DNA from: Acidobacteriota bacterium | Lineage (GTDB): Bacteria > Acidobacteriota > Thermoanaerobaculia > Multivoradales > JAGPDF01 | Assembly: GCA_012521815.1 (NCBI GenBank) | Contig: JAAYLR010000014.1 | Span: 1-54,365 of the forward strand | Reading direction: 5' to 3' | Length of the DNA: 54,365 nt | In this document: piece after piece, positions 36,484 to 36,495 of the stretch | Position numbering within the stretch: the first letter of the stretch is position 1 | Layout of the letters: each line of letters starts with the position of its first letter | The notes under the pieces: generated by a model | What the model was told of the DNA's origin: nothing | Seen by the model: the letters and a program-made list of their open reading frames with translations, nothing else | Databases searched by the model: none | Translations under genes and position numbers: made by a program

Positions 36484-36495
<12 letters not shown>
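35557..36495 (-). CDS. ldcA: LD-carboxypeptidase, S66 family
   Basis: Removes the terminal D-Ala from muropeptide tetrapeptides (or related MccF-like peptide hydrolysis) in peptidoglycan recycling. The 312-residue protein shows the family motifs FARGGHGVLRLLP (about 88-100), LVGYSDLTPLL with the nucleophilic Ser, FHGPM, ILFWEEVGEPAYRLDRML with the Glu, and SGHTVPNLTLPLG with the His. A short Gly/Ser-rich insertion lies before the last motif. The only possible start is GTG 36495, inside the 3' strand of the RNase P RNA P1 helix, and no SD is visible. Stop overlaps the FHA gene start. Confidence 0.9.

Follow-up and report, generated by a model that had tools for sequence, protein, structure and literature searches.

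The apparent start codon of an LD-carboxypeptidase gene lies inside the P1 helix of RNase P RNA in a genus of Thermoanaerobaculia

The rnpB-ldcA locus

The stretch of DNA analyzed here (the window, 54,365 nt of contig JAAYLR010000014.1, assembly GCA_012521815.1) comes from an Acidobacteriota genome of the class Thermoanaerobaculia. On its minus strand lie uvrC, a DnaJ/DUF4388 gene, rnpB, ldcA, a gene for a cyclic-nucleotide-binding and FHA protein, and recG. The assembly is fragmented (243 contigs) and 98.6% complete; a search for 16S rRNA in it found none.

RNase P RNA, an ancient and essential molecule, is encoded here by a single-copy rnpB gene of class A (36484..36878, minus strand). This gene matches the RF00010 covariance model over its full length (model positions 1-367; 264.2 bits against a cut-off of 100); the match itself spans 36874-36484, to which four nucleotides of the P1 helix are added. 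Upstream, a -10 box, TAGACT (36885..36890, minus strand), occupies a position that is conserved in the order: in 41 of 41 genomes, TANNNT precedes the Rfam 5' end of rnpB by 14-21 nt. From its placement, this box would have rnpB transcription start at or near the first base of P1. The earlier note on this DNA had allowed for a shorter mature rnpB RNA lacking P1; such an RNA is unlikely, because the conserved -10 box puts the 5' end at P1.

Directly after rnpB, ldcA (35557..36495, minus strand) is an intact open reading frame encoding 312 amino acids, with both domains of the LD-carboxypeptidase family Peptidase_S66, each matched end to end (PF02016, 1-121 of 121, 5.7e-28; PF17676, 1-120 of 120, 5e-25). 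It holds the only PF02016 match and is the only S66 peptidase gene in the genome. With 114 bits against a cut-off of 378 for the NCBIfam muramoyltetrapeptide carboxypeptidase equivalog (NF008424), the protein is a member of the S66 family and not an NF008424 equivalog, and we use the name ldcA in the family sense. The next gene (34775..35560, minus strand; PF00027, PF00498) has an ATG that overlaps the ldcA stop codon (ATGA) and an end that overlaps recG; with overlaps on both sides, it is probably part of an operon behind rnpB.

The P1 helix and the ldcA start codon

The two ends of rnpB are joined by the P1 helix, in which the 5' strand GGGCGGAGGCCCCC (36865..36878, minus strand) faces the 3' strand GGGTGCCTCCGCCC (36484..36497, minus strand), so that 36878-36865 pair with 36497-36484. 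The junction reads 5'-GGCTTA C GGGTGCCTCCGCCC-3', with 36498 as the first base past GGCTTA. Standard pairs form at 13 of the 14 positions, the sole exception being C36868.U36494. The outer part of the helix is a perfect 10-bp stretch (36878-36869 with 36493-36484), and beyond the mismatch the helix continues for three further pairs (36867-36865 with 36495-36497). The earlier note had described the P1 3' strand as overlapping the ldcA GTG (36493..36495, minus strand), an overlap that it in fact understated: because the helix extends three pairs past the mismatch, all three bases of the GTG, and not just the last, lie within P1.

Comparison with relatives indicates that P1 is a real helix. In 31 of them that share its register, almost every one of the 14 positions is paired in almost every genome, and the majority of positions show several pair types, as expected of compensatory change; this covariation runs through the positions of the ldcA GTG. 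At least one mismatch among the 14 positions is present in 22 of 41 genomes, many of them at the helix ends. In both species of the genus, the C.U mismatch falls on the U of the GUG, and we considered whether this placement was proof of selection. We dropped the argument because P1 mismatches are frequent in relatives; one of these (G022) has a C.U at the same place, where there is no start codon.

The GTG sits at about positions 3-5 after GGCTTA in the P1 3' strand in both members of the genus. No other in-frame ATG, GTG or TTG exists between a TAG about 80 nt upstream and PGDRVGVAALSG, which encodes the conserved PGDRVGV motif, nor is there any in-frame CTG, ATT, ATC or ATA upstream of the GTG back to that TAG. 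One near-cognate codon lies downstream, an ATC at codon 5. The sister species (G001, JAHDVN010000391), the only other genome of the genus compared, has an identical GTG/P1 layout with 76% protein identity, so the overlap is not an artefact of one assembly; its codon 5 is TCT. Between the two species, codons 1-4 are identical and codons 5-6 differ, and codons 1-31 show 2, 2 and 11 changes at codon positions 1, 2 and 3, respectively. Beyond codon 6 it is mostly third positions that change, and translation should therefore begin upstream of codon 7. Relatives carry a matching LPPPVxPGD segment just ahead of the PGDRVGV motif. With the alternatives eliminated, we take the GTG as what would be the only reasonable ldcA start.

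Shine-Dalgarno (SD) pairing at this codon is weak (-3.0 kcal/mol against the anti-SD sequence), and 30 of 38 genes in the window reach -4.5 or better in a comparison that is generous in choosing the best start for each gene. The earlier note's description of an unusual start, the only one in frame before the conserved motif and lacking an SD, thus holds up, in both species as regards the sole start codon and, for the SD, as weak pairing: the GTG is buried in P1. We also considered translational coupling from an open reading frame within rnpB and rejected it, the conserved rnpB ATG (GAATGAAC) being in another frame here; in several relatives that ATG is in the ldcA frame.

The gene pair and its junction across the class

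The earlier note had proposed comparing the rnpB-ldcA junction among relatives. Among 48 genomes of the order whose sequence extends far enough past rnpB, adjacency is kept in 43, with ldcA directly after rnpB and within 250 nt, and the ldcA starts lie mostly outside P1. The pair also occurs in other Thermoanaerobaculia families (f14, f16, f17, f18 and partly f13); in the fetched flanks of 40 loci outside the class (Binatia, Nitrospinota, other Acidobacteriota and others), we found no case of rnpB near ldcA. Four members of the order lack ldcA beside rnpB (loci L047, L061, L069 and L039 of genomes G016, G038, G052 and G008, respectively). One of them, G016, keeps the tail CTTTGATT after P1, like relatives with an adjacent ldcA, and because this tail is retained, ldcA may have been lost or relocated there recently.

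Most relatives start ldcA at the end of P1 or soon after it. Families f3, f4, f6 and f9 and parts of f1 have a TTG 1-3 nt past P1, and others an ATG or GTG further downstream. In some relatives the start is 25-230 nt downstream of P1, so the gene pair can exist without the overlap. A GTG inside P1 is known in the two sister species only. One genome of the order (G021, locus L051) has its ldcA 116 nt from rnpB and carries a TAGACT box 7 nt before the ATG; this box could serve as the promoter of a leaderless ldcA mRNA.

Six genomes, including the two of the genus, have no ATG, GTG or TTG at least four codons ahead of the motif after P1. Among the other four, G043 and G082 offer CTG candidates, and G040 has a GTG two codons ahead of the motif. 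G070 (locus L175) has a single in-frame ATG for ldcA, which belongs to the rnpB core (GGAATGATC) and precedes the end of GGCTTA by 28 nt; on this layout either translation would cross the 3' end of the ribozyme or a non-canonical start would be used. Odd starts of these kinds (a CTG, or an ATG inside rnpB before P1) thus occur as candidates in the class, which lends something to the idea that the true ldcA start of our genome is elsewhere, at a non-canonical codon such as the ATC of codon 5 or inside rnpB with reading through P1. We consider this highly improbable, given that the sister species has TCT at codon 5 and that no in-frame NTG, ATT, ATC or ATA precedes the GTG before the upstream stop.

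In most genomes of the class, P1 is directly followed by a U-rich tail: the 10 nt after the helix contain a mean of 4.1 T across 81 genomes of the class, against a background of 1.66. At the corresponding position here (36474..36483, minus strand; ldcA codons 5-8) there are only 2 T in 10. The tail together with the long, GC-rich P1 resembles a terminator that has the whole ribozyme as its loop, or a single-strand cut site. Start codons within the tail are in the ldcA frame in 23 instances and out of frame in 4 (8 families versus 3). These counts come from related genomes and do not amount to a formal probability; the in-frame excess nevertheless speaks for the use of these codons as ldcA starts.

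A proposed single transcript with two uses, and comparison with known systems

The earlier note had singled out a separate ldcA promoter as evidence that would count against its proposal, and no sigma-70-type signal for one was found. A scan limited to promoter-like pairs of that type was empty between rnpB and ldcA, leading us to reject an internal sigma-70 promoter. We likewise found no intrinsic terminator between the two genes and no TANNNT in the 220 nt preceding the GTG, and the 20 nt immediately ahead of that codon belong to the rnpB core (ACAGAA..CGGCTTA). Together, these observations point to expression of ldcA by read-through from the rnpB promoter. We therefore favor, with a probability of about 0.6, a single rnpB-ldcA transcription unit driven by that promoter, in which each RNA molecule would become either RNase P RNA or a template for low-level LdcA synthesis. 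An RNA that folds P1 would be trimmed just after the helix to yield RNase P RNA, with the ldcA start buried or destroyed; an RNA that stays unfolded and uncut at P1 for long enough would let a ribosome start at the GTG. Trimming of the 3' side past P1 may be the work of an RNase E/G-type enzyme (the genome encodes two RNase E/G homologues); such trimming would sever the ldcA mRNA around codons 4-6 in this genome and would hit the start codon itself in the relatives that use TTG. In the genus, the downstream ldcA start would have disappeared, and the GTG in the helix would serve instead.

Thermodynamic folds have the GUG paired in all long transcripts containing rnpB and, among the folds tried, least paired in an RNA that has it as its 5' end. 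Folds of a GC-rich RNA of 400 nt are unreliable, and the longer transcripts favor non-native pairing of the GUG; whole-transcript minimum-free-energy folding, which gave such non-native pairing, was kept only as a weak hint. The openness of a GUG at the 5' end of its RNA and the weak SD both fit the chief rival to read-through, in which ldcA would have its own promoter inside rnpB, giving an mRNA that begins at the GTG or close to it, with a very short leader or none. P1 could not form in that RNA, its 5' strand being missing, and the two RNAs would not be in conflict. The box close to the ATG in G021 suggests that the order may allow a leaderless ldcA mRNA. We regard this reading as doubtful for our genome, where the region before the GTG holds neither a TANNNT nor a promoter-like pair and the rnpB core leaves no room for a -10 box.

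Under the favored single transcription unit, one RNA copy probably cannot serve as both RNase P RNA and ldcA mRNA. The earlier note's mutual exclusion of folding and translation is well founded structurally at the site itself, where the GUG lies in a conserved, covarying helix and is paired in the long folds. Its suggestion of a processing switch fares less well: the GTG-in-P1 arrangement is confined to two sister species, relatives mostly start ldcA outside the helix, mismatches are common and no toggling signal was identified. Either/or use of each molecule would follow from the overlap and need not be a regulated device. A selected switch is possible, in which the contest between P1 folding and ribosome binding would sense, for example, the supply of RNase P protein or growth rate, and it would accord with the C.U mismatch that both species have precisely on the U of the GUG, with adjacency in much of the class and with the clustering of in-frame ldcA starts at the rnpB 3' end. 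It is, in our judgment, quite unlikely, as the same mismatch occurs in G022 without a start codon, the ldcA start drifts from inside P1 to more than 200 nt downstream, and no ligand or sensor element is evident. A broader reading, slightly less improbable and still unlikely, is that across Thermoanaerobaculia the rnpB 3' end doubles as the initiation region of ldcA, such that RNA maturation and the synthesis of LdcA, a peptidoglycan-recycling enzyme, would compete for each transcript and couple tRNA-processing capacity to cell-wall recycling.

By these genome comparisons, the overlap is real and unusual, a stable-RNA/ORF overlap belonging to a gene pair that persists across the order and part of the class. 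If the favored reading is true, the locus would clearly exemplify a transcript whose two fates exclude each other. For annotation, a rule that forbids overlap between coding sequences and non-coding RNAs would cut short or overlook the start of ldcA at this locus. In the open-access literature, we found no report of the rnpB-ldcA pair, or of rnpB with an LD-carboxypeptidase or with Thermoanaerobaculia.

Three known systems come near this arrangement. In Staphylococcus aureus, the open reading frame SA1278 lies wholly inside rnpB, its translation being doubtful, and rnpB is co-transcribed with the upstream gene gpsB (PMC3937233). That case shares with ours a ribosome-binding site and start codon within folded RNase P RNA, an rnpB carried (here probably) in a longer transcript and a P1 that guards the RNA ends; here, by contrast, P1 contains the beginning of a conserved, full-length enzyme gene that runs downstream of rnpB. 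In Alphaproteobacteria, the tRNASec gene selC is nested in selB and overlaps the start of the next open reading frame, for which an either/or model was proposed from sequence alone (PMC8124441). There too a structured housekeeping RNA shares same-strand coding nucleotides, and RNA processing would break the mRNA, but the RNA is a tRNA that mainly shares sequence with the 3' end of the reading frame before it, whereas here RNase P RNA overlaps the start of a downstream one. The linkage of ssrS (6S RNA) with ygfA, a widely conserved pairing of RNA and enzyme gene (PMC4064990), likewise has the gene of a housekeeping RNA within the 5' region of a gene for an unrelated enzyme; in that pair 6S RNA lies in the 5' UTR, and PMC4064990 does not place the ygfA start codon in the RNA fold, which is where the ldcA GTG lies.
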